This document shows, in pieces, positions 3,945 to 42,370 of a stretch of DNA of 42,629 bases (within the stretch, counting starts at the first letter, position 1; each line of letters opens with the position of its first letter). The translations under genes were made by a program, and so were the position numbers. The DNA lies in NCBI GenBank assembly GCA_009602725.1, contig WELB01000002.1, positions 768,546-811,174 on the forward strand. The letters are read 5' to 3'. The DNA is from Spirogloea muscicola (taxonomy: Eukaryota > Streptophyta > Zygnematophyceae > Spirogloeales > Spirogloeaceae). The notes below the pieces were generated by a model. That model was not told the origin of the DNA, searched no databases, and saw only the letters and a program-made list of their open reading frames with translations.

Positions 3945-4005
3945 TTTGTTCATTTTTGGGCTGGCTTTTCCAGCCCCTATCCTCAATGGGCGAGCCCTTC
4001 TTATT
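3945..4005 (+). repeat. Hairpin repeat copy
   Basis: This copy has the leader TTTGTTCATTTTTGGGCTGG, the short inverted repeat (GGCTGGCTTTTCCAGCC) and the downstream CCCTATCCTCAATGGGCGAG. Almost the same sequence recurs at 4805-4865 in the 3' tail of a LINE fragment, and in reverse near 181-215 and 37625-37680. Confidence 0.8.
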
Positions 4006-4329
4006 GGGAGTGCCACTTCTTCTTCACTCCGGGGTTGGATCTCCGACACCAGGGTTGCGAGTCGTGAGTCCGGGGCCTCCCACCGTACTTGGCGTTAGGG
4101 GGTGTAGCAAATTTAAGGGGTGTAGCAAATTTACTCGCACCGTTTAGGATTTATCGATTGGCGACCTTTATGTTTTGACCCGCGGTTACTGAGCGGGTCA
4201 TTTTGCTGTAGGTTATATAGGTCTTAGATATAGGTCTTAGAGCTTGCCTTTGTACTTGGCCATTTGGCCTTCGTTTGTTTCAAATACACGAATTTTCGCG
4301 TTTAGGAGGAGTCCCAACGGTAGAGATGA

Positions 4330-4731
4330 CACGATCATGTAAGGTTACCGGCACCGTTGGCACTCCCAGACGGAGGGAACGTTACAAGCTGTGCCCTTGC
4401 TGCCGCCTCCAGCTGTGGCAGGGGGAGTGCTATTCAGTTGGCCATAGACACCCATGGGGCGCTGGGCGCTCGGTGGCTCGAGATGCTCACCCAGCTCGCC
4501 CGCCACACCATCGCCCGTCGCTTCCATGGGGAGCCTGTAGACTTCCCTGCAGCAGGGTCGCTGGCGCAATTGTATCGCATGCGCCTGGCCGTCTCGCTGC
4601 AGCGGTCGATGGCCTGTGCGCTGCACCTTCGTGCCGGCCGGGCTCTTGCTGCTGCCTCTGGCTCTGGCCAGGGGACCCACTTTCAGGACCCTAGCCTCTC
4701 TGATTTGCGGCTGCTTAGCAGGGGTTACTGA
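4330..4731 (+). mobile_element. LINE-type reverse transcriptase, C-terminal fragment
   Basis: The plus frame ending at the TGA at 4729-4731 is the extreme C-terminus of a non-LTR retrotransposon polyprotein. The segment IQLAIDTHGALGARWLEML matches the post-RT motif of the family, in which a P-L-A-V-D-x-H/Y-G-type sequence precedes a helix and Arg-rich stretch. It ends in SLSDLRLLSRGY. A second copy at 37858-38164 shares the same landmarks (PLAVDVHGALGSQWLDLL, YRMRLSVSLQRSM, SLSDLRFLTRNY), so this is a family. Only about 130 residues survive; no palm domain or endonuclease is present, so this is a 5'-truncated dead copy. Assignment as LINE is confident; the clade is not known. Confidence 0.8.
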
Positions 4732-4870
4732 GTGATTTGCAGCTGCTTTCTTTCTTTGTGTGCTTTGTTTACTTAGCGCTTCCTCTGCCCCCCCCCTTCT
4801 CGTACTTTGTTCATTCTTTTTTGGGCTGGCTTTTCCAGCCCCTATCCTCAATGGGCGAGCCCCCTCCCTA
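4732..4870 (+). mobile_element. LINE 3' untranslated tail with hairpin repeat
   Basis: Directly after the LINE stop comes a T/C-rich tail ending in the hairpin unit (TTTGTTCATTCTTTTTTGGG, then GGCTGG...CCAGCC, then AATGGGCGAGCC). The same order (stop codon, about 70-100 bases, hairpin) is seen in the copies at 37621-37800 (minus), 37858-38340 and 38351-38530. This ties the dispersed hairpin repeat to the 3' end of this element. Confidence 0.7.
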
Positions 4871-5581
4871 TTCAGTGCCCTCTCCTGGAAGCGTCCATCT
4901 CCTGTCCAGACGTTGTACGATCCTTGGGGCAGCTTGGGGCATGAGAAAGTAAGCTTTTTCAAAGGGGGCGGGCGGGGGCTGTGAAAAGAATGTGAGCTTT
5001 GCAAGAGAGAAGTGACATGAAATGAGAGAGAGGCCAATTCAAGCCAATACATTGTTCAGGCAGAGTCGAGTGCAAACGAAACAAGGCTACATTATACGGA
5101 AAGGGGGCGGGGGCTGTGAAGCCAGCCCAGAAAGAATGGACTTGTACCAAACAGGGGAGAAAAACTATACCAATATAGGGCGATGGCTGTGATTAGTCAG
5201 CCCAAGACTAAGAAATAAAATAGTTCGAAGGGTCCAGAAAAGCGCTAAAGCACACAGCGACTCAAGTGGCCACTGGGTGTTCAACAGCTCCAGGTTTGAT
5301 TCAAAGGGCCGAAAGGCGCTAAAACCACACAGCTATAGGGCTCGACGGACTCCTACAGAAGCTGCACAAGTATTGAATTTCCAATTGTCGGACTACCGAC
5401 GAGGGTCCAGGGGTTCAGGGTCGCCGCTCAGCTCCTCGACGTCGGGCGCAAGGGGCTTTGGATTGGCGGGGGTTGGCCGTCAGCCTCGGCTGCCGTCAGG
5501 CTGACGCACCTGGCAGGCGCCAAAATGCAACATAAACAGAAAGCTCCAGTTGCAACTGCCGTCAGCAACGCCCCCCGCGCC
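4871..5581. repeat. Reverse-oriented hairpin repeats and APC2 upstream region
   Basis: Reverse copies (GGGGGCTGTGAAGCCAGCCC) lie near 5106-5140 and 5180-5205, with a partial copy near 4965. At 5228-5345 a short phrase (GCGCTAAA..CACACAGC) occurs twice. The sequence becomes strongly GC-rich from about 5400, matching the promoter and first exon of APC2. No TATA box is obvious. Confidence 0.6.
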
Positions 5582-8500
5582 ATGGGCGCCGCGGAACGCG
5601 GCGGCGGCGGCGGCGCCAGTGGCTTTGGTCGTGGCGAGAGCGCCACGCCGGACGCTGCCGCGACGGAAGCCGTGACGGATGCGTGGGCCGGCTTCGTGGA
5701 GGTGCGCCAGAGCACGACGGATCCCCCACTCCCCAGCTGCCTGAGCGGCGGCTCCTTCGCCAGCCCGCCGTCTCGCGGCCACGATCAGCTGAAAGCCCGC
5801 GTGCCCGGAACAAGCCTCGCCCAGAGGCTGGGCTCCTGCGAGCCCAGGGTGCCTTCATCAGAGCTCGGCAGGGTTGGACCAGGCGCGGCTCAGCCAGCTC
5901 GCTCGGTGGAGTCTCCTGCTGGGTCCCACTTCCTCGTGAGCTCAAGCTGACCGGCTCGCTCCTCCTGTTACCGCCTGCACCGCAGCGGCTCGACCACCCG
6001 CGCCCGGAGGAGCTGCGCATCCTTTGCCGGCATGGCCTTGCCCCCTTGGTCGCGAGCTACTTCATTGGAGAGCTCCAGGTTACAAACCTCTGAACATTGA
6101 CTTCCTGAATCTTGGTTCTCGAGAATGTATCGTGGAATCTTCCCTCATTCTTACGGTCCAAAGTCTCAGGTTGACTTCAGATCTGCCTCTTCTAGACACC
6201 TTCACTGACCTCGTAGTAAGTGAATTCGGTTGATAATTCATACAAGTCGGCTTGCTCAGACTCTTCTGCAAAGCAAAAGCGCAACCAATATAGGACAGCT
6301 AGCTACTGTCATTTCCATCTTCCAAGGGCACTGCCAAAAGCGGAGGCTAAACAAGAGCAGCACAGGGCCTCTGATTGTATGAGCATGGTCGAGCTTCTGA
6401 TGACAAGGATATCCAAGTGGCCTGTGCTATTGCCTCTCTGAGAACCACATGACCGCACAGCCCTTGACATATCGCGAGTAGACCCAGAGGAGAAACATTA
6501 TGGTGTCTCTTGTTCTGTGCTATATACATGCACTGCCAGTACTTGGTCCTGAGGTCTTGTGATGCTCAAGCTCCGTGCAGATAACTCATAGCTGACAAAG
6601 CATGCGGCTGGCAGAAGGAGCTCCAAGAGCAATACATGGTGCCCTTCTGGCGCTCTGTGGAGAGCTTGGCAAGCCTCGTCAAGCAGGCGGATGCACAGGT
6701 AAGGCCTGAGGTCCCTGCACTGTGGTGATGAGCCAAATGAACAGCACATCTGAACAGGGGTCTACTGCTCCATATTTGTGCCAGTGCAGTGGCACCCATG
6801 CCACTCGTACTGGGTGGTCCTATAAGGTCCTCAAGCTCTAGATCACTAAGAGCTCACAATGCTAGTTCTAAGCTTATGCACTATTTGCTCCAGAGTAAGA
6901 TACAACACAAAATAGGCCATACACGTGAAGCACGCCAGCTGTGAAATGCCAGCCCTGTTGCCCTCCTCCTGTCTCAAAACACCCAAAGGTTGACTGTTGC
7001 AATTGCTCCTGCGCTGCAGGTCGATCGGCTTGTAGAAGCGGGACTGGTGGAAGCTCTGGAAGTCGTTTGCACCGCGAGAACTGCGCAGGAGCGTCGCGTT
7101 GCAAGGCTAGACTCTCTGCTGAGCGAATTTACGCTTGGCGATCAATGGCAAGAGTGCAGCAGAGAGGGAACCTTAGCCTTGTACCCCAAAGGCCTCCTAC
7201 GGCAGTACCAGACCTCTGCTGCTGCTACCGCCCTACGTTGTGCACCACTGCACCTCTCAGGTTCACAATCGTCAGCAGAACCTGCCAACAGAACCTGCTT
7301 ATTTCCGAACAGGGATTTGCAGAACGGCCCCAACCGTTGCTACAATGACGGTCATGTGCAGCTTTGTCTCCAAGATGGTTCCATGGTTCCAAGAGTGTGA
7401 CTCTCAACATTGACTTTGAGTGGTGGTTCTTGCTGTGAAAGTACAGCTGTCCTGAAGACATACTTCAGGGCGCAGCTGCAGGAGCTTCACAAGGCAGTTC
7501 AGAAGAGGCGAATGCTGCACAAGGGCAGCTCGATGGATACTGAGTTGGAAGGCAGCAGTGACGGTGAAGCCTCGCCAGACGCCTTTGGCAGCAAAGCGAG
7601 GATGGCTGACACGGGACTTGCATGCACTACACCGGGGCTCCCATCCGCTAATCAAGACATGGACGAGGAAAGAGCCGAGGACTTGCTTTCAGCTGTTGAG
7701 CGTCAGCCTGGGCACGAGTGTGAAGATAGTGAGCAAGAGGAAACCATACCAGATGCCAAAGACTTTGGACTCTTGGGTATTTTTGTATGTGAAGAGAACG
7801 ATGAGAGACTACCTCAAATAGGTATCGTTTCGGAATGGCATCTTGGACTTGTCATGTATACTTTCCTGAAAGTCAAAGAGTCAAGAGCCAGGACTTTGAC
7901 TGAAGTGCAGTCTGGGATGAGGGTGCAAAGCATGGGGCATTAAATTACGGAGGTCATCCTCTTATTGGAGAAGCCTCTCACATCAAGATTGACCATCCTG
8001 GGTAACTGTGACAGATGTTTCCAGGCCGAATGAGGATGAGAGAGACTCCATGGAAGTGGTGCAGGTAGCACCAGAAGATGGTGGTGGGCAAGAGCTGCGG
8101 AGAAAGTCTGACATGCAAGCATTGCAAAAGAAAGTTGACGAAGTGGTCACAACAATGGGGCCCTTGTGGGTCTCCAAGCTGAGCCAGGTTGTTCATTGGC
8201 TGCGGGCTTTGGGTCTGGCCTCTCTGAGCGAGTCAGCATCAGGCTCGGTCATCGTCGACCAGCTCAATGTCAGTACACCACTTCTCCTCTCGTCCTTTCC
8301 GTATGCATCAACGCTCAGCATCAAGGCGTAGCTTTGACCAGCATGTACAGTCAGCCACTTATATGATGCCTGTAGTGCATTTGTCGCGCCCCAGAGCTGG
8401 TTGCCTTGCTGGGGTTGCCGATGCAATCATATAGCTTGACTGTGGCACAGGCATTGCTCACCATAGACTTCGTGCTGCCGTGCTCATAGCACTATGTCAA

Positions 8501-14930: not shown

Positions 14931-14936
14931 AACCTG

Positions 14937-21412: not shown

Positions 21413-24130
21413 TCATTGCAGCTGCACCTTCACCTCCTTGCGATCACAACCAAAAGCCTGGACCCATTTTCACATACTCTTGTCAGCATGCTTCCAGTCG
21501 AAGCTTCCACACGTAGCAGCCACTAATGTTGCCTTTACTTTTCTGCAAGCAGCATACAGTGCGGGTGACAACATTTCCATACCTCAATGCCATCGGCCTT
21601 GAGATAGACATGGCTCCACAACTCATCAGGCTCAGGTGGCGAGCCATCCTGCAGAATGTGCACTCACGTACAGACATATATTAAGGTCAAGCTCGGAAGC
21701 AAAATGTAAGCACCAAAAATGGCATGAAGTACCTCACACTTGCAGTGGAGGCGAGTACCTTGGTCTCATTGACAACAGCATCCACCTCTTTTCTCACATC
21801 CTTCTCAATTGCCTGGCAGCCATGAAAGGTCAAATGAGCTGACAGAATGAAACCACATTGTGCTGATTTCTGCAATCTGCTTATGTCTGCAAGATAAGCA
21901 GTGAGTGTCCATTGTCTCAGCCGAAGAAACACCTGTAATCATGCATCTTCCACAATTACTAGCTGACATCCGTGTGAGCAGTGTGGTCCTGATAAGCTCA
22001 TCACCTTGAGGTCGCTCACGCTCACAATCTCTTTTGCTAGCAGTAGCTTACGGATGCGCTCAATGGGGTCACGCTCCTGTGTTTGTAAAAAGACAAAGTC
22101 CAAACAATGTATGTAGAGCATGAGGGCCAGCATCATGGCAGATGTTGATTTCCTGTGCAGAGCAAAAGCCAGCCAAAGGACCCTACAGGTTCCCTACAAG
22201 ACTTTTCTGACAGGATCACCTGCCGCACGCCGCTGATTTCATCACGGGTGCGATACGTGCTTCCAGGGTCGGACATAGAGTGCCCATGATATCTGTAAGT
22301 ATCCATCTCCAGGACCTGCCCGCAAGTTGCACATGAGAGGTATCACAGATCTCATCGACTTCACAATAATGCAATTCTGAAGAGGCACATCCTTGTCCTT
22401 CGCAGGCGGAAATGCATGCAGCCTCACTAGTCAGTAACACAGTAGTATACAATGGTTAGAACAGTATATTAGCAAGTTGTATCTGCTAGCTGAAGGTCTT
22501 CCAATAATTGCCGCAACATACTATTGGCCCATGCTCAAGAGCATGCTCCTTGGCATACTTGACAGCCTGCTTGACCGCCAGGGCGTCCATGCCATCGACC
22601 TGCATACAAACGAGCATCTTGACAAATTAGCCAGCAAATGGAAGCTCTCCTGGCATCCTAGATATAGTAAGCTGGTCCACGATGTGCTGTGGCACGTTCA
22701 ACGAGCTAGGCTGAAGGAGCTGAGCTTGCTAGCTGCTGACAGTGTTGACAATGTTGACTCTGACCCACTGCAGCATGCATACCTTCAAGCCAGGAATGTA
22801 GTCCCCGCGGCTGAAGTACTCAGGACTCTTCGCTGATCTCCACTCCGCAGTCCCCATACCATCTGCACAACCCACAAAAGCCACCGGAGGCTTCAGGATC
22901 AGTGACGCACTAGCAGGAAAGCAAAAGTTGCAGTGGTCGAAGGATTATAACCAGCCAATAGAGAAAGTCTTACTGCATTACAGGTATGACGAGCACAAAC
23001 TTCCGCTTCATGTCTAGGTCTCCCAAGTCAAGATGCTCACAGTGGTTGTTTTCACACACGTAGATTACAGGGAGATCCCAAAGAGCTGAGATGTTCATGG
23101 CCTCGAAGAGCTGCCCCTGGTTGGCCGCGCCGTCGCCATACAGGGCCATCGTCACGCCCTTGACTTTGCTATACTTCTGGCCAAAAGCCAATCCAGCACC
23201 AAGCGGAGTCTGCAGAGATATGCATCAAGAACTGACATGTCAGAGCACTGAGAACTTTGCATTTTGGTCACTCAGATAAAGAGTAGGTGCAGTAGGAAGA
23301 AGCCTCCAAGGCTGACCGCAGCCTGGCGGGCGCAACGGCTAGCCTGTTGAAGGCTGGCTTGTGCTTTGGTAGCAGCTGCAAACCTGCGCTCCTACAATGC
23401 CGTTGCCACCGTAGAAGTTGTTCTTCTTGTGGTACATGTGCATGGAGCCACCCTTCCCAAGCGAGCAGCCGTCCTTGTGGCCCATCAGCTCGGCCATGAC
23501 TTCCTTGACGGTGCCCCCGCGGCCAAGGTGGGTACAGTGATCCCGGTAAGCCGTGATGATGCAATCGTCATAGTTGAGTGCCGCCTCCATGCCAACGCAC
23601 ACTGCCTCCTGCCCGTCGTACAGGTGGCAGAAGCCCCGGATGAACTTGCTCTTGTAGAGGCTGTCGGCAGCAATCTGGCGGGACAATGCAGCAGCAGTCA
23701 ACATATCGACACAACGCAAATGGATACCGAAATGTTGACAAGCACCAGCCAATGCACACATGCGCCTGCCAACCATTGCAGGCCTGTTGCCGCTGGCAGG
23801 CACGCCAGCCCGCCGGGCAGGGCGACCAGCCGCCGCGTCTCGGCTGGCAGCTGAAGCTGACTCACAGGAAGAGGAGCTGCAACCCCAGCTCAAGATAGCT
23901 GCCGAGAAACTGATGACAGGGCGGTCATGCTGTGCAACGGACCTCCATGCGGCGCATGCGGAACATGTCGGTGAAGAACTTCACGAGCTCCTTCGGCGAC
24001 GTCTCCACGGCCTGCGGCGGCACCTCGATCTTGTGCCCCTTGAACGGCACTGGGATGTCGACTGCAGCAACACGCCACCGCCACCGCCAGCCGTCAGAGC
24101 TGCCGAGAATACGGACGTGAAACACGCCAT
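21413..24130 (-). CDS. PDHA: Pyruvate dehydrogenase E1 component subunit alpha, mitochondrial, 11 exons
   Basis: With the beta subunit it forms the thiamine-diphosphate E1 of the pyruvate dehydrogenase complex, decarboxylating pyruvate and acetylating E2 lipoyl groups in the mitochondrial matrix. Exons, 5' to 3' on the minus strand: 24130-24085, 24061-23943, 23674-23384, 23209-23041, 22862-22783, 22599-22522, 22315-22220, 22076-22005, 21812-21759, 21648-21583, 21457-21413. All junctions are GT-AG and in phase; total 371 residues from ATG 24130. Landmarks: [47 protein letters not shown], the thiamine-diphosphate motif GDGAANQGQ...CENN (about 177-207), [16 protein letters not shown], and the phosphorylation loop [20 protein letters not shown] (about 270), whose Ser at 274 matches the site used by PDH kinase. 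Plant-like E1-alpha lengths are about 390, so the 15-residue presequence is short: the frame is open upstream (Arg/Ala/Ser-rich) to a stop near 24325 without an ATG, and an extra 5' exon may exist. Confidence 0.96.
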
Positions 24131-24654: not shown

Positions 24655-25470
24655 AGGTCACTGAATCAGCGATCCTTGGCCCCTGTTCTGACATAGCATC
24701 TTCCGGCCCCTTTGTAGCTGCTAATCGCTTGTAGGCCCCCTCCAAACCTTTGTCAATTCTTTTTGGGCTGGCTTTTCGCAGCCCTTGCCCCCATTGCGAG
24801 TGCCACTTCTCTCTGGCTCGCCTTGCTGCTTAGGGCCTCGGGTGCCGGTGCCCTGGCACCCTTGACCTTGTACATTCCCGTTGGGCTGGCCATACACAGC
24901 CATTTTACATCGGGTTGGCTTTTCGCAGTAGTTCTCGCCCCTTCGAAAGAGCTCACTTCTCACAGCCATTGCCTTACATTGATGAGAGCTTTTCTTCATA
25001 GCCGCCGCCTCAGGCGATTGATGGGGCCGCGCTTTGGCTGCTGCTTCTAGGCTTCGGCGCGTTGACATTCTTCTGGTTGCAAGCTTCTCTGACTTGCGGC
25101 TGCTTACTAGGTGCTTCATTGATCCTTTGGGCTGGCCTCGCACACCTGATAGGGCTTCTTCTTTTGGGTTGTGCTTTCTCGTGGGCTGGCCTACTCAAAG
25201 TCATTGCATGAGATTCTTCCCTTCTGGGCCGGCCTTCTGGAAAGCTTCTACTCCCTTTTGGGCTGGCCTTCCACAGCCATCGCCCCCTTTAGAAAGCGCA
25301 ATATCTCTTTCCTCTGCTACTTAATTAGCTTTGCGGCTGTTAATTCAGGGGGACTGAGTGGCCTTCCATTGGTTCCACTTGATCAACTCAGTGGTTTACG
25401 CTTTTTCTAGGCCCTTTGGGCCTTGTCCACTCTTTTGGGCTGGCCACTCACAACCATCGTGTCCTTCTTG
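24655..25470 (+). mobile_element. LINE 3' tail and array of hairpin repeats
   Basis: The stretch 24665-24810 (CCTGTTCTGACATAGCATCT, GGCCCCTTTGTAGCTGCTAA, CTTGTAGGCCCC, then hairpin and TTGCCCCCATTG) matches the LINE 3' untranslated tail at 38180-38300 nearly base for base. Near 25079-25112 a remnant of the LINE C-terminus is readable (ASFSDLRLLTR). Hairpin copies follow in the same orientation near 24762, 24889, 24913, 25130, 25183, 25225, 25258 and 25435. Confidence 0.75.
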
Positions 25471-26053
25471 GAGGGCATTTTCTTCTTGCTGTTGTCAAGC
25501 GTGTGTCTCCGTGGCATAAGACTTACCAAGACAGTTCTCCTCCAAGTTTCTGTAGCTTTGGAATTGACGGATGGTCGCCAAAGTAGGTACAGGCGGGACC
25601 ACCTGCTACACCCTAACCACTACACCTTCCCACCTAAGCCTTACCACATTGCATTGAGATTTTGCAACTGCAGTTACTTTCACGAGACAATGTGAAGCTT
25701 AGGGGTGGACACTGCATGTTCCCCAGGAGCTGAAAGCAGCTTGAAGCACTGTGATAGTGCTCCCGTTCTGATCTATAAGTGTGCCTTTTTGCGCTTCAGC
25801 AAAGAGCCCCTTGGCGGTGCTAATGTTGCCGGCAGATGCACCCCAGCTTTTGCGAGCATGCAGTCAGGCATTCTTGACCAGTATACAAATACAGTGTCCA
25901 ACGTCAGAGTAGGTCAATGCTGGCCTCAGGGGTTGTATCAATTGCTAAGATCGCTTAGCATTGAGCCGGGAACTTGGCAGAAACCCTCCTGATCTCTGTT
26001 CCATTATTTGCTGAGCATGGTGTACGAGGACTGAGGCCGCTCAGTGATCGCAG
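25471..26053. other. Spacer downstream of the At1g16860-like gene
   Basis: This lies between the LINE/hairpin block and the stop codon of the minus-strand gene at 26054. Plus-strand frames (25705-25992) are short and unrecognised. I see nothing else to support. Confidence 0.4.
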
Positions 26054-28439: not shown

Positions 28440-29260
28440 CCTTGGAGGAAGGGCTCGCCCTCCTTGGGACTTTGTCCATTCTTTTCCACTCTTTTTGCGC
28501 GTAACAAAAAGAGTGGAAAAGAATGGACATACGGCCCCTTTCTGACCATGAACATTCCTTTGGGCTGGCCTCTCACGGCCGCTGCCTTGACCTTGTCCAT
28601 TCCTTTTGGGCTAGCTTCTCCCAGCCACCAGTCAATTCGGCCGCGCTTTTCTGCCTTACATCGGATGAGCTGTTGCCTGTCGGGCTGGCTCTTCACAGCC
28701 TCACCCGTGTGTTTGACAGTATTTTCCTCCTTCGAAGGGGCCGAGGGCTGTGAAGAAAGGGCTCGCCCATAGAGAAGAGGGGCAAGCTCATCCAAGGGAT
28801 GAGCTCCATTCTTATGATGAGCTCCATTTTCCTCCCCCTCTCCAGTCAGCGGGCTGCCGAGGGTAGTGCCTTGGCCACTCCAATTTTGGGCTGACCTTTC
28901 TTCTCCCCAGCCGTCGGCCCCTCTTGTCTCACTTGTCCTCTTCGCTCACTCTTGTACAATCCTTTGGGCTGGCCTCTCACAGCCATTGCCGTCAAGATGG
29001 AAGTGCTGTTCTCTTTGGTTGCTTCATTTTCATGCGCACCGCGCGCCTTCTCTCTTTGGGAAAACCTTTCCTACTGTTACAGGTGGTTGGAACAACGCTA
29101 AACGCAAACCCAGAACTTTCAACATCTTCGCCACGACCTGGGATTCGGGGGCCCGTGCTAGATTATGGCGGCGGCGAGCTCGGGCATGTGCCTCCCCAGG
29201 CTGGCTTTTTGGGCTGGCTTTTCGCAGCCCTTGCCCCCATTGGGAGTGCCACTTCTCTCC
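28440..29260. repeat. Hairpin-repeat cluster
   Basis: Copies in plus orientation lie near 28555, 28605, 28680, 28885, 28965 and 29205, and a reverse copy near 28740-28775. The last copy runs TTTTTGGGCTGGCTTTTCGC then AGCCCTTGCCCCCATTGGGA, the same 3' tail form as the LINE copies at 24760 and 38255. TTCATGCGCACCGCGCGCCT of the second repeat family is at about 29028. Confidence 0.75.
28474..28528. repeat. Perfect inverted repeat, 23-bp arms with 9-nt loop
   Basis: The left arm 28474-28496 begins GTCCATTCTTTTCCACTC and ends in five T; the right arm 28506-28528 is its exact reverse complement; the loop is GCGCGTAAC. The left arm begins with the TTTGTCCATTCTTTT leader that precedes most hairpin repeats, so this looks like two repeat leaders joined head to head. 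A transcript of either strand would fold into a 23-bp stem. Confidence 0.95.
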
Positions 29261-29466: not shown

Positions 29467-30053
29467 NNNNNNNNNNNNNNNNNNNNNNNNNNNNNNNNNN
29501 NNNNNNNNNNNNNNNNNNNNNNNNNNNNNNNNNNNNNNNNNNNNNNNNNNNNNNNNNNNNNNNNNNNNNNNNNNNNNNNNNNNNNNNNNNNNNNNNNNNN
29601 NNNNNNNNNNNNNNNNNNNNNNNNNNNNNNNNNNNNNNNNNNNNNNNNNNNNNNNNNNNNNNNNNNNNNNNNNNNNNNNNNNNNNNNNNNNNNNNNNNNN
29701 NNNNNNNNNNNNNNNNNNNNNNNNNNNNNNNNNNNNNNNNNNNNNNNNNNNNNNNNNNNNNNNNNNNNNNNNNNNNNNNNNNNNNNNNNNNNNNNNNNNN
29801 NNNNNNNNNNNNNNNNNNNNNNNNNNNNNNNNNNNNNNNNNNNNNNNNNNNNNNNNNNNNNNNNNNNNNNNNNNNNNNNNNNNNNNNNNNNNNNNNNNNN
29901 NNNNNNNNNNNNNNNNNNNNNNNNNNNNNNNNNNNNNNNNNNNNNNNNNNNNNNNNNNNNNNNNNNNNNNNNNNNNNNNNNNNNNNNNNNNNNNNNNNNN
30001 NNNNNNNNNNNNNNNNNNNNNNNNNNNNNNNNNNNNNNNNNNNNNNNNNNNNN
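29467..30053. other. Assembly gap (587 N)
   Basis: This is a run of undetermined bases. It is flanked on the left by a very GC- and C-rich stretch (a C tract of about nine just before the gap). The left flank resembles the GC-rich first exons of other genes here, so a gene start could be hidden in the gap. Confidence 0.99.
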
Positions 30054-30269
30054 GTGTCGATTGCGGCCGGGAGGAGGTGGTCACTGCGGGGGTAGTCTGA
30101 GTAGTGTCGGAGCTTTTTCTGCTCAGCACCTCCCACTGCGTGGCCAGCAATGTGTGTGGAAGCGGAACTCTTGTATGCCTCAGTCACCACCACATCAACC
30201 AAAGCTCGTGGGCCTCCGCCAGGTTGTACACCCACAATGTCCAGGGTGCGACGGTGATGGCCTCCCTGG

Positions 30270-30900
30270 GCATGGCATAGGGCTTCGCTTCATGTAGCCC
30301 CACTTCTTGCACTAGCTTTTCAATGAACAATATATCGGCTCGAACTGGCCACTCTTTGAGTTCATGCGCACTGCGCGCCTTCTCTCTTTAGAGATTACTC
30401 GGTGATTATCCTACATGGTACTTGCTTAGTCATCGGTTTCAGCCCTTTATCGGCCACTTCGGACCTTGTCAATCGTCTCTTTATCTTATTTCAAAGTCTT
30501 CATCTTTCGGGCTGGCTTTTCACAGCCTCGCCCTTTTTGGGAGAGCAACTTTTTTTGACAGCCCCTCTCATAGCTGCGTCTCCTCCTCCACCGGCACATC
30601 GCCCCCTCTAGACCTTGGGCTGTTTCTCACTTCTCTCCTGTTTCTTGGGACCTCGTTCATTTCTTTGTGGGCTGCATTTTCACAGCCCTCGCCCCCTGAT
30701 AGAGACAGCCCTCGCCCCCTGATAGAGCTGCTTCTTCTTCTTGGTAGAGCTACACTGAGCCTACTTCTCAGCCCGCTAATTATACAGTTGCCTTACAGCA
30801 TAGGCCTCCGCTCCACGTTCTTCCCACTAGCTTTTGCCTGAACAGTGCATTGGCTAGATAAGGCCTCCCTTCCCTTCATGCGCAATGCACGCCTTCTCTG
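30270..30900 (+). repeat. Mixed block of both dispersed repeat families
   Basis: GCATAGGGCTTCGCTTCATG lies near 30276 and TTCATGCGCACTGCGCGCCT near 30359, with a diverged pair (GCATAGGCCTCCGCTCCACG, then TTCATGCGCAATGCACGCCT) near 30800-30895. Hairpin copies in plus orientation are near 30510 and 30670, and the downstream phrase CAGCCCTCGCCCCCTGATAG is duplicated in tandem near 30684-30728. Confidence 0.7.
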
Positions 30901-31840
30901 AGCCCCCGTCCGCTTGTGTGTGAAGCAGCCAGACCGTGGGCAGCTGGCTGCTGTTCAGCTGTAACAGCCAGCTCGATCGAGTCTGTTGCTGGAGCTCCTC
31001 CTGCTATGCTACCCAGTTGCTGCTGCTCGTCCTGAACATCCTTGACGGGCCGGCCCACTCACCATCAGCTGCCACCACATGCAGGAGCTTGCATATTCTA
31101 CCGACGCCCTTCTCCCCCATCTTTCACTGTACGCGACCTTGTAGATAGGAACAAACACATTAAGCTGAAGACCAGCAAATGCTCTTGTGGAGGAGCTCAC
31201 ACTCTGTCACTCAGCATCGCCTGGACGAAGCTGGTACTCTTCAGAGCTCCTCAAACTGTTGCGCTAGGGTCCAACCCTAAGGAGACACATATGAGGTCAA
31301 TTCTGTGCTGCGGCCGGCATGTGGAGTTGGCAAATGACTTCAGTGGTAGTGAGGGCCCTAAATGGTGGTCGTACTAAAAGCTTGAACGGCACTTGCACAC
31401 CTTGTCACGATTGTGCCTATGGTACTCGTGCATGCCACTTGTTGTGATCTGTCTGGGACGAAACACCAATTCAAGCCAGAATCAGAAGTAAATAGCTACT
31501 ACCGAGAACAAAGGTCACTTGTGACCATCAAGTTGTGGAGCCTCTGAGACAGCAGTCATCTTGCAGACGAGTCTTGCCATGTGGGAATAGAAGACTGGAA
31601 AGCATCTCTCAATGAATGGCTATTTCAACGATCTCAACAGTTTCTATGTCCAACTCATGGAGCTAGTAAGCAATTCTGGCTGATGGCTAGATTTTTGCAA
31701 TCACTCATTCCTAACTTGGAACCCTGTAACCTTGTCTTTTAGATTTACTTGAGAGTCTTGGCTTTCTAGGGTTTGAGACTCCAGCCATCAATGTAGCATG
31801 GCTAGGAAACGTGCACAAGCACTCGCGACCCACTGGACCC
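30901..31840. other. Unresolved stretch, possible exons
   Basis: No gene can be assembled with confidence. A plus-strand stretch near 31600-31665 reads well (NGYFNDLNSFYVQLMEL) up to a GTAAGC donor, and a minus-strand frame at 31009-31200 ends near a possible donor, but neither could be linked to neighbours in phase. Confidence 0.25.
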
Positions 31841-31844
31841 TTCG

Positions 31845-32650
31845 GACCTTGTCCACTCTTTTCGGGCTGGCTTTCACAGCTCTCGTCGCTTTTTGAAGAA
31901 TTTTTTCCACAGACATCGCCCACTTATAAAAAGCTTTTGCTCTTGGAGCGGCCATCTTTTCGGGATTGCTTTGATTTTGCTAGCTTTCTGCTTTCAACTG
32001 GAGAGAGTGTCTTCCCAGGAGGGGGCGATGGCTGTGCAGGGACATCTCAAGAAAGACTTCAGTTACCGACTCCCGTGACCTTTTTCTCTTAACGTTTTGT
32101 GGGCCGGCCCTTCACAGCCTCACCCCATTTGCAAATGGCTGCTTCTTTCTTCTTTGCCCTCGCCCCCGCTGAAAGACCAGCTTATTACTCTTGGAAGTGC
32201 TTCTCCTTCTTTCTGGCTCCTCAGTATAGCTTGTCAGATATGCATGTGATCACTCGGGGACATTAGTGTCCCCCTTGGCCAGCTCATTACCCAGTTACCA
32301 GGGCATATGTAAGGCTAGAATTGGCCTCCCTTTCAATTTCATGCCCATCGCGCGCCTTCCCTCTGGGCTGCCGGGGTTAGGGTTTAGGCTTTCTCTGACT
32401 TTGTGGCTGCTAAATGCGACACTCCTTTTGGTCACGTGCTTTCTTGCTTCTCGACGCCTTGAGACCTTGTTTACTCTTTTGTGGGCTGGCCTCTCGCAGC
32501 CCTCGCCCCGTCTGGAAATGGTACTTCTCATTATTTCTTCTCTTGTTGAAGCTTCTTTGCCCCACAAGAGAGAATGCTTCTGATAGAAGAAGAAGAGGTA
32601 TAATTTAGACGCGAAGATGTCCACCGAAGTGGGTGAGGGCCAGCCCAACA
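31845..32650 (+). repeat. Hairpin-repeat cluster
   Basis: Plus-orientation copies lie near 31860, 32098 and 32480, with a reverse partial copy near 32015-32040. TTTCATGCCCATCGCGCGCC of the second family is at about 32335. A degraded LINE terminus (TTTCTCTGACTTTGTGGCTG) may be present near 32390. Confidence 0.65.
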
Positions 32651-34486: not shown

Positions 34487-34520
34487 AGCCAGCGAGCGAG
34501 CGAGCGAGCGAGCGAGCGGG
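34487..34520. repeat. GAGC tetranucleotide microsatellite
   Basis: About seven GAGC/CGAG units in tandem lie just upstream of exon 1 of the minus-strand Ser-rich gene, within its presumed promoter. Confidence 0.9.
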
Positions 34521-34779: not shown

Positions 34780-34870
34780 CCCTGGCTCTGTCCAGGGGAC
34801 CCACTTCCAGGACCCTAGCCTCTCTGATTTGCGGCTGCTTAGCAGGGGTNCCCCCCCCCCCCCCCCCCCC
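34780..34870 (+). mobile_element. LINE C-terminal fragment ending in a poly-C run
   Basis: The stretch 34783-34849 repeats the last codons of the LINE at 4665-4726 (GTHFQDPSLSDLRLLSRG) almost exactly, then stops abruptly at an ambiguous base (34850) followed by 20 C (34851-34870). The other copies continue into TACTGA at this point, so this copy is broken at the ambiguous base. A sequencing or assembly artefact at the C run is likely. Confidence 0.75.
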
Positions 34871-35330: not shown

Positions 35331-36330
35331 CTTATTCAGTTGCTGGCGTCTTTTAAGACTCGGTTCCTTTTATTTTGGGCTGCCCTCTCACAGCCATTGC
35401 CTCTCCTTGGAAGAGCTGTTTGATTTGGGCTCGTTTGTCACAGCCACTGCCTTCCTCACCCGGCTTCTAAGCGGAGGCTCGGATCCTGGACATCGCCCCC
35501 TTGACCGCCCCGCGATCCTCCACGCCGGCGCACGCGCCCCAGGCACACGCTACAAAGCCGGCAGGCGAGCCCCAGAGGAGGCAGCAGCACAGGCGATGCG
35601 GCACGAGGTGGTGGGCTGTTGCCCGCGGCTCCACAGGAACCCAAGCCTCCTGCGCGCCTGCCCCCAACTGCCCCCAACCCTCGCCGTGGCCTTCCCAGGT
35701 TGCCGTAACTATTGTATAGACGGAAGACTATCCAAACTCACTAGGGACACTTGAGCGGCAAAGTGAGGCGGCGGCCGACGCCACCGCCGGCGGGCGCTAT
35801 CCTGGCGGCCGAATCAAGGAGCAAAGCGACAAAATGTTGCGGGGCTGCGAGCGAGTTGCGGGCCGAAGGGTGCAGGCCACCGAGCAACGGGACGCTCACC
35901 TTCTGAATCCTGGAACCTAAGAACTTGTTCATGTTGATGGGGTGATGCCTGTGAGAAAATTAGGCAATGGCTGTGAGAGGCCAGCCCGACGGAATGTTCA
36001 AGAAGTGAAAAAATAAGCTCAGGCTCAGCGAAGGCTGTGAAAGGGCAGCCCAAAGAGGGTCCAAGAAAGAAAAAAGACAGAAAGCAAAGGAAGGCTTGTC
36101 CATCCTTTTTCGGCTGGCCTCTTAGTTACTTTTCGAGGAGAGGAACTCCGGAATGGTATCATATAGACTGCAGTGCCAGCCCTCAGCTCGTTTCCTTGTG
36201 CTGAATCCTCTCGCCGTACTGCAATGATACAGGCTAAGGCAGCAACTTGCAGGTATGTCTACTCTACGAAGAGATGAAGCTCATCTAGAAAGGGCAATGG
36301 TTGTGACAGGCCAGCCTAGAAGAGTGTCAA
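35331..36330. repeat. Hairpin-repeat copies in both orientations
   Basis: Plus copies lie near 35373-35402 and 35425. Reverse copies lie near 35965-35990, 36025-36060 and 36295-36325 (GCAATGGTTGTGACAGGCCA then GCC), and a plus partial copy near 36105. The stretch 35470-35700 is GC-rich with unrecognised open frames. Confidence 0.6.
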
Positions 36331-37410
36331 GGTCTTGGAACAGTTGTAGACAGAGGAGGGGAGTTGAAGAAGGAAAGCTGAGGCCTTCACTAAACACCTG
36401 CCGAATACGCCAGGCACTCTTCTTTGCTCTTCCAGACTGAACGATGCCATGACACTGTGCCCATATTATTTCCATATCAATTGACTCAGAAAGCCGACCA
36501 AGCTTGACTGATGAATATTGCAGCATCAGTCTTACTGAGAATGAGGGGGGCCTCTTCCTGCTAATGTCAAGGCAGAACATCCGCAAAAGCTCATCATGAC
36601 TGCAGCAGAAAGATGACGAATGCCCCAGCCCCTGCAAACCACCAGCCAAGAAAAGACCGTCCAAGGGGCAATGACGGGAAAAGCCCTTGTAAGGTGCACC
36701 ACCAGCACCCCTGCAAGTAGTGGAGGTGGGTGCGGCAGAAGCACGGGCCACGCCAAGGAGGAGCTATGCCTTATCCATCAACACGCAGTCGTGTTGACTA
36801 GTGCCTCGAACAACGATCATAGAATGATAGGGGCAAAAGGCTCAGCTACCCACCAAACGCTGCCCTCTTCATTGTGGGCCTCATTCCCATTGTGACCAGC
36901 ACTGGGAAGGGGAGCCCGAGCCAAGCAGCTGGCGAGTCTAGGCTTGAGTCTAGGCAGTCTATTGCGGGGCATCTTCTCATTCTTGCCTTTGTTGAATAGC
37001 AGTGCCTTTTTGAAACTGCTATCTCTGGCATAAGTTAGATCAAATCCACTACTGAGGTTTTCTTGGCACGTGTTTGTAAAATACCTGACCACAATGTCTG
37101 GCAGCGGTCTCTGGCTTGTCTACAAATTCGCCAGAGCGTCAGAATCATTTCAGGCACTCCGATCATTCTGCGGTCAACTCTTGTTCTGACTCTGCCTTTT
37201 TCGACGGTCAAAAGTGTCTCTTCTAAGCACACATATCAGACCACCTCCTCTCCAGTCGTCATTCTGGCCAACGTGATCTACTTGCCGAAGAAGTGCTTGC
37301 TACATGATTTTATGCATCGGCATTGAAGTCTATTAGCAGTCTGACGTCAACAGGCAAATTACGCTAGAGCGCCAGAGCTAGCGAGTTGGGGTGCCGGGGA
37401 GGTGCGGAGT
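36331..37410. other. Unresolved stretch with long open frames
   Basis: Overlapping frames on both strands (minus 36281-36751, 36817-37092 and 37035-37232; plus 37063-37326) look partly protein-like but have no family I recognise, and I could not decide the strand. It may be an old gene or retroelement remnant. No gene is claimed. Confidence 0.2.

Positions 37411-37413
<3 letters not shown>

Positions 37414-37474
<61 letters not shown>
37414..37474. repeat. GA dinucleotide microsatellite
   Basis: About 30 uninterrupted GA units end at an ambiguous base (37475). A GGGA/GGGAG tract follows at 37570-37605 and a short CG run at 37606-37617. Length calls here are likely to be unreliable. Confidence 0.97.
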
Positions 37475-37620
37475 NGGGCGAGAGATAGCGAGCAGCGGCA
37501 GGACGTGGGCGGCACTTAGTGAGTGACAGAGTTGACGAGAAGAAGAGAGAGATGGAGAGATGGAGAGAGGGGGAGGGGAGGGAGGGAGGGAGGGAGGGAG
37601 GGAGAGCGCGCGCGCGCGAG

Positions 37621-37800
37621 AGAAGGGCTCGCCTATAGAGGAGAGGGGCTGGGAAAAGCCAGCCCAAAAAAGTATGAACAAAGTACGAGAAGGGGCCAGG
37701 GGAAGCACTAAGATATTAAGCAGCTACGAAGCACTCAGTAACCCCTGCTAAGCAACCTCAGGTCAGAGAAACTTGGCTCCTGGAAGCGGGTCCTGGCCTG
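37621..37800 (-). mobile_element. LINE 3' end, minus strand
   Basis: Read on the minus strand this gives the degraded LINE C-terminus, GCTTAGCAGGGGTTACTGAG with its stop (37735-37755), then a tail ending in CTCGTACTTTGTTCATACTT, the hairpin, and GCGAGCCCTTCTCT. It is the same arrangement as at 4700-4870. It abuts the plus-strand copy that begins near 37800, so two elements lie tail-outward beside a microsatellite. Confidence 0.75.
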
Positions 37801-38340
37801 GCTTGGCTTTTTCCAGCCCCTATCCTCAATTGGCGAGCCCTTCTTCTATCCACCCAGTTGCAGATGTGTTCGTACCCCTGGCTGTGGACGTGCACGGGGC
37901 TCTCGGGTCCCAGTGGCTCGACCTGCTGGCCAGGCTTGCGCGGCGCGCTGTGTCCCGCAGGCGCGGTGAGCGGACTTCAACGCCGCTGGCTCGTTGGCTC
38001 AAGTCTATCGTATGAGATTGTCTGTATCCCTTCAGCGGTCCATGGCCCACCCTCTGCATCTGCGTGCTGGCCGTGGTCTCACTGCGGCCTCCGGCTACCG
38101 TCAGGGGGATAGTTTTCCGGCAGCTAGTCTGTCGGATCTGAGGTTCCTCACTCGTAACTACTGAGTGATCCATCCTCCCCCTGTTCTGACATAGCATCTT
38201 CAGGCCCCTTGTAGCTGCTACACGCTTGTAGGCCCCTCCGAACCTTTGTCAAATCTTTTTGGGCTGGCTTTTCGCAGCCCTTGCCCCCATTGGAAGTGCC
38301 ACTTCTCTCCTCCATGGGCGAGCCCTTCTTCTTACTCTTG
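37800..38340 (+). mobile_element. LINE C-terminal fragment with frameshift, plus 3' tail
   Basis: From about 37855 the frame encodes FVPLAVDVHGALGSQWLDLL and an Arg-rich stretch. The frame is then lost near 37965-37980, and a shifted frame continues with AAGSLAQVYRMRLSVSLQRS to SLSDLRFLTRNY and a TGA at 38162-38164. One indel explains it, so the copy is dead. The 3' tail (38165-38340) contains the CTGTTCTGACATAGCATCTT phrase, then the hairpin (about 38262-38282) and CCATGGGCGAGCCCTTCTTC. Confidence 0.8.
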
Positions 38341-38350
38341 GCTTTGGTCA

Positions 38351-38530
38351 GGGGGATAGTTTGTCGGCAGCTAGTCTGTCGGATTTGAGGCTCCTCACTC
38401 GTAGCTACTGAGTGGTCCATCCTACACCCGTTCTGACATAGCGCTTCAGGCCCCTCCGTCATTTGGCCCTTTCGAACCTTCGTCAATTCTTTTCGGGCTG
38501 GCTTTTCACAGCCCTTGCCCTGCTCCCTCC
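38351..38530 (+). mobile_element. LINE 3' end, second tandem copy
   Basis: GDSLSAASLSDLRLLTRSY ends in a TGA at 38409-38411, followed by the same 3' tail (GTTCTGACATAGCG, GGCCCCTCC, TCGTCAATTCTTTTCGGGCT, hairpin). It lies immediately after the previous copy in the same orientation and is 5'-truncated to about 20 codons. Confidence 0.8.
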
Positions 38531-38699
38531 TGCCGTCCACTCGCGTGCAGGCCGCGCTATCGCGGCTGCTTCTGGGTCGCGTCTGAAAGCTTCTTTTCGA
38601 GCTACTCTGACCTGATGTTGCTCACCTGCGGGTATTGAGCTTCCTGTGCTTTCGTCTTGTCTTCTTGAATAGCTGCCTAGCTGCGTGTTTCTTCGCTAT

Positions 38700-38920
38700 A
38701 TGGCTTTGGACTTTCTCCATTCTTTCTGGGCTGGCTTTGCTAGCCCCCCCTTCTCTATGGGCGAGCCCTTTCTTCTTGCCCCCATTGAGAAGAAGTGGCA
38801 CGCCAAAGGGGGGCAAGGGCTGTGATAAGCCAGCCCAAAAGAGAGAGCCCAAAAAGAATTGACAAGGGTTCGGAGGGGCCGACAAGCGTTTAGCAGCTGC
38901 AGAGGGGCCTGAAGATGATT
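38700..38920. mobile_element. Head-to-head pair of LINE tails
   Basis: A plus-strand hairpin copy (about 38718-38775, ending GCGAGCCCTTTCTTC) meets a minus-strand copy (about 38780-38915, reading GGGCAAGGGCTGTGATAAGC then CAGCCC, GAATTGACAAGGGTTCGGAG, GAGGGGCCTGAAGATG). Together they form a large interrupted palindrome of about 130 bases. Confidence 0.7.
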
Positions 38921-39632
38921 GAGAGAGCCACTTTCCTGGCCAGGGCCAGGGCCAGGGCGGGGCAGCTCAGCTGGCCGCGGACAGGTTCTTCGCGGCCATG
39001 TCAGTAGGCACTTGGCAGTCGTCGGATCCGGGAGCACCAGATCGGATGGACCGGCCGGGCGCCGAGGCACCGCCATCGTCAGGCTTAGCGGCAGGTTAGG
39101 GCGGCTGCGTGGCCGGCACGGGCCCACCACCCAAACTGTGATCACCCAGTGTGAACTGATAACTTTTGCCGTTAAGGGCGGCCCCAGTCGTCGGCCGCCC
39201 TCTTGAAAACGGTCGTGAATGGGCCCAACCTTGGCCTAACGAGAGTGCTGGAATACCACTGAATGACTGCCATATTTACGTCATTTAATCGACCGTCCCA
39301 GGCCTGGCCAGACGAAAGCCATTGACGGTAAGGAGCTCGAGGCGCGGCGCAGCGCAGGCGACCGCGCCGCGCGCCGCGATTTGCGGCAGGCCTGACTCCT
39401 GGAGGGCCCTCTCCCGCGATCTGCGGCGGGCCTTCCGCCGAAGCACCAGCCTGCGCCTCGCCGCGTGCTGCCGATCCAGGGCGTTGCGCCGCCGATCGGA
39501 GCCCTGCGGCGCAGGGGCGGCCAGATCGGGCTCGGCTTGCCGTCAGGGTGTGGCGTAGATCCGGCTGTGCGGGCTTGTTGCGTCGACGCGGCTGGGCCTG
39601 GATGACGGGAAAGTGATACCGGCTGAGAAGAC
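38921..39632. promoter_or_regulatory. GC-rich upstream region of the Pro-rich membrane protein gene
   Basis: GC-rich sequence precedes the start codon at 39633. CCAGGGCCAGGGCCAGGGC (about 38939-38957) is a short tandem repeat. No TATA box is obvious. Open frames on the minus strand (39172-39813) are by-products of the GC bias and show no domain. Confidence 0.35.
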
Positions 39633-41305
39633 ATGGCGCGGCCCGGCTTGGAGTACTGCATCGTGGCGTGCCTGTTCTGCGCTCTTGTCCTTGGAGACTC
39701 TCGGTCTGCAGTTGCGCAGGTGCACACTCCCTATCACCTGAGCCTCTCCCGGGCCTCCAGTCCATTCCTCCACCATTGCCATCGGGTGTAGTTGCACAGT
39801 CTGGGCCTCCCACAACGAATTAAAGTAGGCCGTGAGAACCCTACGACCTCGATAATGAATTACGATGCTTCGACATCTTCATTTGTTGCTGTTGGCAATG
39901 ACTGGACTTGATTCCCGGGCTAGATGGAAGAAAGTCGAAGCCTTGACCTTCCCTGTAAATCTCAGACATTTGCTGCCAGTGTTGATCGGTCCTCTGGAAC
40001 ACAATCTGCCACTGCAGCCTCAAAGGCTGTCTCTCAAGTCCATGTGTCATTGAGCGCAAAATTGGGGTCAGAATACTATGCGATGCTGAAGCTTACAATG
40101 TTGCACTTACAACAACCACTCACTACAACAGCCACCCTTGTGCTCTTTGTGGCAAAGGTGCTCAGTCTCTGATTGCACCTTCATGATTGATCTGACTGAG
40201 CAGGCACCTGCTCCAGGGCCAGCTGCTCTGGGATCGCCTCAAGGGCCATCATCTGGACCAAGTTCAGGGCCAGCAGGCGTACCGCCACCTCTATCAACAT
40301 CAGCCGCACCAAGTCCAGGGCCAGCAGCTGCTGCACAAGAACCAGCCCCTCCTCCTGCTGCTGCCCCCGTCCCTGCATCCAGTACAGGTATGTACTACTT
40401 ATGCCTCGCTTGTACGTCTCTATTGCACCTGTGGTGTGCATACAAGAACGTGTATGGCCCAGGCATTTCTTTCAGGTCATCCAGATCAGTCGCTGTTGAC
40501 TGGCTGCTTGCTCCCAAATGAGCGTGAAGGTCCCCACAGACAGCAGCAGGGAAATCTTCCTTGTTTCCATTCTGATTTACATTTCTTGATTAATACGTGG
40601 TAAAAGAGTGGTCAACTAGGATGTTATGCAGATTGAGTGTTCTTTCCAAAGGAAGAGATTTCAATTACATGCTAGTGATAGTTTCAAGTGCACTAGCGTG
40701 CTGTTTATGAATATGACTATGACTATGAGATATACTGCAGCATTGCAAAGACCGCACTAGTTGACTTCTGCTAGGCTTTTTGGCACCAGCAGGCAAGGCA
40801 AGCCCCCCCCCTCCCGACACTGGTCTTCCTCCAGGCTTTACTCCTCCACCACTACCCAGTGCACCTGACGGACCCCCAGGCACACCACCTGTTGCAAAGG
40901 ACAACAGCAACGGCGGAGGCTCAGGTTCATCGTAAGATTCCGAGCACCAGCTGGTGGATGTCGATTGCATATAGGAGCACCGAAGTAACAATTCAGCATG
41001 TTGATTGTACTCCCGCTGTATACCTGCCCTTTCTGGGGCTCGTGAAGCTATTGGCAACGGCGGCACCGAAAGACAAACGATCATGCAAAGGATAAAGCGA
41101 AGAGTTGACGGGACAAGCTCCACTTGTTGCAGTGTTTCACTTTTTGTCCATCTCCCCAGATGCTCCAATGCTCATAGTTGGCGGGCTGACAGTGCAAGTC
41201 TTGATCTGCATTTGCAGCTTAAGTGGTGGTGCTGTGGCTGGCACTGTTGTCGGCGCCCTAGTTGCTGCAGCAGTGATCGCAGCACTAATTTGGATCTTTG
41301 TCCAA
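39633..41305 (+). CDS. Secreted/type I membrane protein with Pro-rich ectodomain (5' part)
   Basis: Four exons join in phase: 39633-39719, 40204-40387, 40793-40931, 41218-41305. Exon 1 is a typical signal peptide (LEYCIVACLFCALVL, then SRSAVA/Q). Exons 2 and 3 give a Pro/Ala/Ser/Gly-rich stretch of about 100 residues (GPSSGPSSGPAG, APPPAAAPVPASS, PPPPDTGLPPGFTPPPLP) with AP, SP and PPPP motifs, typical of hydroxyproline-rich or arabinogalactan-type wall domains. Exon 4 is one membrane segment (GAVAGTVVGALVAAAVIAAL then IWIFV) preceded by LSGG, the usual boundary of plant receptor-like kinases such as PERK. No kinase domain is visible: after the donor at 41306 the cytoplasmic exons are not recognisable, and a new gene starts at 42532. 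It is either a short membrane-anchored proteoglycan or a receptor whose later exons I missed. Confidence 0.6.
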
Positions 41306-41537
41306 GTGAGCATAGGCTTCATATCACTTGTCACCATTTATTGCCTCGTACATCTGACACATCTATTATGGGGCTGTGAGTGGCGGGTTCCTATGCTTGA
41401 TGTCAAGTGGGAGTACAGCCCAAGCGTCGCTGCAGCTGTTCTCATATTCGGTTGCCATTTTCGTGACAGAGGAGACGGAATAGTGCTCGTGATGGCTATG
41501 GCTACTCTAGGGACAGGTATGACATTTCCAGTACTGT

Positions 41538-41561
41538 CTTGGCTGTACCCCTACAGCCAAG
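41538..41561. repeat. Perfect hairpin, 10-bp arms with 4-nt loop
   Basis: CTTGGCTGTA (41538-41547), loop CCCC, TACAGCCAAG (41552-41561). It lies downstream of the last resolved exon of the Pro-rich membrane protein gene. It could be a fold in an intron or the 3' UTR. Confidence 0.85.
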
Positions 41562-41599
41562 AAATACCCTTCCCTTCTTCGTGCTTTGACGCTCACAAT

Positions 41600-42190
41600 C
41601 AGCCACTTTAACAAGGCAATGCTTCTTCGTACTCAAATGTCCGATGGACCCTTGACAATCACCACTCATCACATTGTAGCACCATTGTTACATGCAGGGA
41701 CCTGGAGATGAGGTGGACAGGTGGGCGCTGAGATGCTCAACTGAGTCCATGGATTGTGGCTAGAATGGTTGCCTCATTGCATATGCTGCCGACCTATAGA
41801 AGGGGCCACTGGGGAGATTCTGCCAGTCTCTCTGCAAGGCAGGACTCCTGAATGATAGCCCAGTTCGCGGCTCTGTTTGCTGCCATAGTACACCTCCAAA
41901 GACTTGCCCTGTCAGAGGTGCCAGCATGTTGACAACTGTCCGGCGCTGTGGAGCAAGTTCTGAAATTTATTGCTTGAGTTTCTTTGCATTTGTATGCAGT
42001 CATTCCTCACGTGCCTGTAGTTCTTAAGGCTTGACTTCTTTTTAGGCGCAGCTTTGGTGATGACTCCGGTGGATTGAGGAGCTAGCGGACAATTTCGGGC
42101 TTGTGTGCAAGGGATGAAAGTATCTCTAGCAGATAAGGTATGCCGCAACCTGAACTGTCTCCATCAACGGTGGAGACTGTCACTGAATAC
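41600..42190. other. Spacer or unresolved 3' exons
   Basis: No coding sequence is convincingly linked to the membrane protein upstream. A possible acceptor (CATGCAG) near 41697 precedes a short open stretch only. Nothing else is supported. Confidence 0.35.
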
Positions 42191-42199
42191 AGCGAATGG

Positions 42200-42370
42200 C
42201 ACCTGCGATTGTCCAGCCCAAGAAGAATGAAGAGGGTGCAACGAGTGAGGGGAGCTAACAGTTTGCGACTCTAGTGAGGCAGCGAGGAATTACTACTATC
42301 GATTAACAGAAGGAGCAGGTCTTCCAGAGGGGAAGAGAGAGCTGGGAAATGCCCAGCCCACAGAAGAATA
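42200..42370 (-). repeat. Reverse hairpin-repeat copies
   Basis: TGTCCAGCCCAAGAAGAATG (about 42210-42230) and GCTGGGAAATGCCCAGCCCA (42341-42360) are reverse-orientation copies of the hairpin unit. The second has a perfect GCTGGG / CCCAGC stem. Confidence 0.65.

Follow-up and report, generated by a model that had tools for sequence, protein, structure and literature searches.

The window analysed here is a stretch of 42,629 nucleotides (nt) from the genome of the alga Spirogloea muscicola (G000:C2:768546-811174, in an assembly of 153 Mb and 471 contigs), in which a short unit with the inverted repeat GGGCTG-loop-CAGCCC recurs in both orientations. A first-pass annotation had described it as a free-standing repeat family of unnamed form, with a unit of about 55 bases. 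The conserved unit is actually around 75-80 nt long, and its long copies extend upstream into a 3' untranslated region (UTR) and a coding frame. The repeat forms the terminal 75-80 nt of this UTR in long interspersed nuclear elements (LINEs) and is contiguous with their coding frame, and its copies are largely the 5'-truncated tails of such elements.

For the detection of tails, a profile of 75 columns was made with nhmmer from 60 seed copies and iterated on 27 loci, each 5 kb or longer (272,629 letters including Ns). At E<1e-3 it detected 30 tail copies in the window, which are listed below with the LINE coding remnants; E values are those of the profile, A and B are subfamilies labelled by us, and L010 is a locus with a long LINE frame that is described later.

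214-270 (+), 323-368 (+), 561-625 (+), 623-679 (-): four tails; E 3.1e-5, 1e-4, 1.5e-9, 1.6e-5
3934-3998 (+): tail, subfamily B; E 4e-13
4438-4731 (+): LINE C-terminal coding remnant ending SLSDLRLLSRGY-stop; 95% by tblastn to residues 388-484 of the L010 frame; hairpin 95 nt past the stop
4798-4862 (+): tail, subfamily B, contiguous with the remnant at 4438-4731; E 1.9e-14; aligned with nine other copies
5101-5150, 5165-5235 (-): two tails; E 4.5e-7, 1.7e-8
24738-24810 (+): tail, subfamily A; E 1.3e-14
24863-24904 (+): tail; E 2.3e-7
25250-25306 (+): tail; E 1.7e-9
25410-25483 (+): tail; E 7e-12
28537-28586, 28589-28649 (+): two tails; E 3.2e-7, 4.2e-10
28951-29009 (+): tail; E 1.5e-11
29206-29256 (+): tail, subfamily A, 5'-truncated, from profile position 25; E 3.1e-11
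30452-30551 (+): tail; E 6.5e-13
30644-30698 (+): tail; E 8.6e-9
31835-31907 (+): tail; E 2.9e-13
32457-32528 (+): tail; E 1.8e-12
35350-35420 (+): tail; E 6e-11
35960-36002, 36024-36057, 36272-36335 (-): three tails; E 5.3e-7, 3.8e-4, 5.7e-9
37624-37690 (-): tail, subfamily B, 73 nt past the coding end SDLRLLSRGY-stop at 37735 (-); E 9.9e-14
37804-37841 (+): tail, 5'-truncated; E 1.1e-4
37851-38164 (+): subfamily-A LINE C-terminal coding remnants ending SLSDLRFLTRNY-stop; tblastn 50% (37851-38009) and 73% (37973-38161); hairpin 100 nt past the stop
38231-38306 (+): tail, subfamily A, contiguous with the remnants at 37851-38164; E 1.6e-16
38465-38521 (+): tail, 87 nt past the coding end LTRSY-stop at 38411; E 2.3e-11
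38705-38773 (+): tail; E 2.4e-10
38791-38880 (-): tail, subfamily A; E 1.4e-12

The same-orientation blocks that had been proposed hold at 24.7-25.5, 28.5-29.3, 30.4-30.7 and 31.8-32.5 kb, all of them plus, whereas the block at 35.3-38.9 kb is mixed, with five tails on each strand. Copies had been reported from position 3945 onwards, and they are also present earlier, at 0.2-0.7 kb; no profile tail at E<1e-3 was detected in the window between 5.3 and 24.7 kb. Among the few clear host genes there is one similar to pyruvate dehydrogenase E1 alpha, with an exon at 23339-23980 on the minus strand (PF00676, 3e-28).

Abundance and anatomy of the tail unit

Allowing up to two mismatches, 31 matches to the hairpin motif were found in the window, compared with 5.4 expected and a maximum of 11 in 100 shuffles. 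Genome-wide, the exact pattern GGGCTG-N6-12-CAGCCC was found 17,115 times and its reversed control 62 times; this pattern is its own reverse complement, so the counts of both strands refer to identical places. The sequence TTCTTTTNNGGGCTGG had 2,951 and 2,948 exact matches on the two strands (control 0 and 0), and a 36-nt end of the subfamily-B tail had 919 exact copies (control 0), scattered over contigs C1-C14 among the matches listed (100 of the 919).

With the profile, 125 tail copies were detected at E<1e-3 across the 27 loci, and none at this threshold in the reversed sequences of the same loci. The 24 loci that were picked solely by coordinate comprise 151,456 non-N bases, two of them being nothing but N, and 13 of them contain copies, 55 in total. 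Extrapolation from these 24 loci gives around 40,000 tails in the genome (21,000-61,000 by bootstrap over loci), a rough figure because the profile was trained partly on them. The hairpin repeat is thus real beyond chance and far commoner than the window alone could show, and further copies exist elsewhere in the genome by both the exact and the profile counts. An Rfam scan of the window at gathering thresholds matched no family.

In the subfamilies, which we labelled A-F, the unit reads GGCCCCTTC..ACCTTGTCCATTCTTTT, then GGGCTGG-loop-CAGCC, and then 25-30 nt to CACTTCT or CACTTTCTTCT, so that the inverted repeat lies inside the unit, flanked on either side by 25-30 conserved nt. Across the 125 copies the 3' end is sharp, often running into CTT or TTC, and the 5' ends are variable. 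A recognisable hairpin with full flanks is present in 86 copies, 83 of which keep at least 5 bp. The profile matches start at position 1 or 2 in 41 of the 125 tails and at position 6 in another 24, a clustering of 5' ends that random 5' truncation explains only in part. Upstream of profile position 1 lies LINE 3' UTR in A, B, C and D, so the clustering partly marks the end of the homology between subfamilies. An inverted repeat at 28465-28530 of the window, with arms that include TTGTCCATTCTTTTCCACTCTTTTTG, is built from the leader of the tail unit and resembles two leaders placed head to head.

The tail joined to LINE coding frames

Ten subfamily-B copies were aligned with up to 700 nt of their upstream sequence, and they have a common 3' end and an unequal reach upstream into one coding frame. 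The frame at L010 is 484 amino acids long and ends in SISDLRLLSRGY-stop, with GGCTGG starting 80 nt past the first base of the stop codon. A pattern scan of the 27 loci found 31 C-termini of the type SDLxLL(T/S)RGY-stop, 23 of which have the hairpin pattern within 260 nt; in 20 of the 31 it lies at 56-103 nt (one antisense). At five more coding ends a profile tail on the same strand starts 16-97 nt past the stop, its stem deviating from the search pattern. The A, B, C and D coding ends have different sequences but the same ending, so several LINE families share the hairpin.

The 484-residue piece on its own matched nothing in Pfam or the PDB. In the genome it had at least 25 near-full matches at 99-100% identity, its own place included (88 scored of 18,074 first-look candidates), and at least 17 of these lie in open frames of 1,142-1,403 codons; such near-identical copies point to recent activity of the LINE. 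In a 2-kb stretch taken upstream of one of the matches, at L047, there is an open frame of 666 amino acids with a reverse transcriptase (RT) domain (RVT_1, 2.8e-16) and FADD at residue 568. Its best matches among solved proteins are those of R2 retrotransposons (1.2e-7), and a weak N-terminal C2H2 finger (0.06-0.1) falls below the curated cut-off. Against R2, a profile of eight sequences scored 3.5e-30, and against human LINE-1 ORF2p 3.1e-15; both matches lie in the RT part, which is covered by the six database relatives only, so this result speaks for the relatives and not for the frames of this genome.

The C-terminal alignment shows a C-C-H-C motif, R-V-D-x14-D (with V replacing P) and K-E-L-K-Y, the first K of which is invariant in all eight sequences. 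For LINEs of this kind, PMC5678591 describes a CCHC knuckle of the form CX2-3CX7-8HX4C and a catalytic lysine in an unusual position, within KX2KY. The lysine motif of the algal protein fits this description, and the C-terminal part would be a putative restriction-like endonuclease.

Proposed recognition, insertion and rival readings

The stem had been presented as the best-kept part of the unit. Five of its pairs are indeed well conserved, but the outermost G-C forms a standard pair in just 16 of 46 non-redundant sequences. In the folding of eight tails, the hairpin stem was part of the best fold in seven; the z-scores ranged between -4.82 and +0.21 and were below -2 in three tails. Two subfamily-B tails (window 4798-4862 and L010:1092-1161, minus strand) form a longer stem in which the leader pairs with AATGGGC (z -2.53 and -4.82); as a general feature this longer outer stem was dropped, being absent from the copies at large in a test of flank pairing. 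Also dropped, on inspection by eye, was a tRNA-like B box that subfamily A might have on its reverse strand, since other subfamilies differ at that place. RNAalifold predicted no pairs in the alignment of 46 sequences, possibly because of misaligned, gappy rows.

Traces of the insertion process were sought in the sequence. In L011 a 3' UTR of type C is split by a D tail, with a left flank that ends in TTTTGTAGTG and with TTTGTAGTG after the insertion. An uninterrupted relative of this site, in L025, has TTTGTAGTG once, compared with both sides of the insertion in L011, in such a way that around 9 bp are duplicated, the trace to be expected of a target-primed insertion. Also in L011, a D tail lies inside an A tail, but the possible duplication there, GGGC, is too short for a decision. 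In L010 a B LINE is nested within an A 3' UTR, and nested insertion of this sort can account for the blocks of tails. Of the 94 pairs of adjacent tails less than 1 kb apart, 60 have both tails in the same orientation, 20 are tail-to-tail and 14 head-to-head. Tails occur in many different flanks and are not confined to one site of the 28S rRNA gene.

We consider it very probable that the hairpin belongs to the 3' terminal segment of R2-like LINEs, most likely bound by their own protein for target-primed reverse transcription, and that the clusters arose by truncation and nesting. The protein of the element would most likely bind the stem-loop in its own RNA and nick the target, reverse transcription then proceeding from the 3' end of the RNA. 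Copying would often halt early, so that many insertions would be short tails, all carrying the hairpin, and the nesting of younger copies within older ones would generate clustered, often same-orientation blocks. The hairpin is most likely, by analogy, the handle that the protein recognises at the start of reverse transcription: PMC12503042 reports that the R2 protein recognises the 3' UTR of its RNA, where many R2s have a stem-loop, and PMC4176376 describes the binding of tail stem-loops by the proteins of stringent-type LINEs. Binding by the protein may also be what keeps the stem constant.

A number of results weigh against this reading. At six of the 31 coding ends, no hairpin lies within 103 nt and no profile tail within 97 nt. 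Of these six, two have the pattern at 129 and 133 nt, one is split by a nested LINE (its next tail is 1,511 nt further on), two have tails of the related families H and I, and one has no recognised tail. The search for empty sites, applied to 110 tails, gave 22 candidates; one of these was a clear duplication, and the others matched themselves or repeats of their own family or were unclear. The knuckle of the L010 frame is spaced CX1CX12HX3C, which departs from the published form, and the putative endonuclease was assigned by motif, with no support from profiles or structures; an AlphaFold model of the C-terminal half was uninformative (mean predicted local distance difference test score 41). 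Regarding the stem, compensatory changes had been anticipated as the sign of selection on RNA structure and their absence as a refutation, and in the 46 non-redundant copies none of the 276 cells changed on both sides. Five of the six pairs vary on one side only, and paired cells make up 82.6%, the same share as in shuffles (82.3%; 225 of 500 at least as high). The flanks of a copy pair no better with each other than permuted ones (P=0.57, 60 copies). Selection on structure as such is therefore without support; since the copies are similar and many are young, the missing covariation is weak evidence either way.

Conservation of the stem by sequence and not by pairing would also suit a role of the hairpin for the host or the LINE transcript other than RT recognition, either as a signal for transcription or 3'-end processing or as a source of small RNAs, and the hairpin's location near the 3' end of the transcript is a usual one for processing signals. 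A host signal, however, would not readily permit the quite different stems that related families of the same genome have in that region, and we regard this possibility as rather improbable. Somewhat less remote, but still unlikely, is that some tail-only copies are parasites similar to short interspersed nuclear elements (SINEs), that is, short RNAs transcribed independently, provided with a LINE tail and moved in trans by the LINE protein. Tails outnumber coding ends in the 27 loci (125 to 31), their 5' ends cluster at the profile positions given above, and stringent-type LINEs and SINEs have tails in common, according to PMC4176376. Part of the clustering is explained by the continuation of the A-D tails upstream into LINE 3' UTR, and no common non-LINE head was seen among the tails, for which no systematic search was made.

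The short unit, its inverted repeat and its occurrence in both orientations, together with the 20 tail-to-tail pairs among the 94, could recall a miniature inverted-repeat transposable element or another short palindromic DNA element, mobile by itself. We give this almost no credence: the inverted repeat is internal and not terminal, the unit has one sharp and one ragged end with no fixed length, and long copies extend into an RT-encoding frame.

Within the preferred reading of LINE tails recognised by their own protein, a further proposal is possible but doubtful, namely that several diverged LINE families share the near-invariant stem-loop because their enzymes copy each other's tails in trans, so that several readers freeze the sequence of the stem. 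Sister families with GGCC-ATTT-GGCC or GCGC-type stems would then be separate recognition groups, and if this were true, the shared and switched stems would be a natural series for the co-evolution of LINE proteins and tails.

Related families and comparison with known LINEs

Two related families have other GC-rich stems in the same part of the element. Family I has the stem GGCC-ATTT-GGCC near its 3' end, represented by a 29-mer with 367 exact copies in the genome (control 0), and its tails lie at 4257-4271 of the window and at L013:7426, L013:3587 (-) and L028:8075 (-). Family H has a GCGC-type stem and the coding end SDLVVLTRGY-stop at L017:3191; its tails, of the CATGCGCACCGCGCGCCTTCTCTCT type, are found in the window at 29023-29055, 30355-30387, 30869-30901 and 32332-32364. 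A coding remnant at 30053-30274 of the window (minus strand), with 44% identity to the LINE C-terminus and of the L028 type (family I) by motif, adjoins the Ns at 29467-30053.

Protein relatives were searched for by scoring the approximately 8,000 candidates with most shared words among 5.8 billion sequences, a scope that does not imply absence from other organisms. The 484-residue query had five matches, all of them EukProt entries with SM000 names. One of these, P0001, is labelled s25:949777-954042 (minus), and its pieces map, likewise on the minus strand, to G000:C25:949991-950416 and 953352-953783; label and mapping agree, so this EukProt set derives from the same assembly. In the entries P0002 and P0003, LINE remnants stand together with Pfam domains of the aquaporin or alpha/beta-hydrolase type, mosaics that are probably artefacts of gene models or of read-through into insertions. 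The RT segment had 125 matches, the best named ones being from Riccia fluitans (P0006, 48% identity over 89%) and Closterium sp. NIES-54 (P0008, 39% over 90%).

By motif and match, the algal LINEs resemble those with a restriction-like endonuclease (R2, R4, NeSL, CRE, HERO and Utopia) in the R2-like RT, the C-terminal CCHC-like knuckle and the putative endonuclease motifs including KX2KY, and differ from them in the spacing of the knuckle. The 5'-truncated copies with a common 3' end, a feature of this class, are present here too. With R2 and its kin they would have in common the weak N-terminal C2H2 finger and a 3' UTR stem-loop like that given for many R2s in PMC12503042; R2 itself sits in 28S rRNA genes, whereas the algal copies are dispersed, in tens of thousands and mostly as tails. 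According to PMC4640811, most LINEs of this class integrate at specific repeated targets, and HERO is described as holding many non-specific elements. The stringent-type LINEs UnaL2, ZfL2-1 and ZfL2-2 are alike in the stem-loop of the 3' tail, the short terminal repeats and the many 5'-truncated copies, but they belong to the L2 clade, and binding of the tail has been shown for them (PMC4176376), whereas the algal RT is R2-like and its binding of the tail is presumed.

Among the titles listed in the library searched, on hairpin repeats or on LINEs of Spirogloea, Zygnematophyceae, green algae including Chlamydomonas, liverworts and streptophytes, no account of this group was found, and the genome paper may treat LINEs generally. 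A dispersed group of R2-like LINEs with a 3' stem-loop tail is ordinary in kind and new as a lineage. Since remnants of these LINEs stand inside predicted protein sets, as in P0002 and P0003, a repeat model would clean the annotation. In an alga near the land plants, the group has left tens of thousands of tails; the nearest named relatives of its protein are from a liverwort and from Closterium, and the presence of same and different tail stems within one genome would allow tests of how LINE proteins recognise their RNA.

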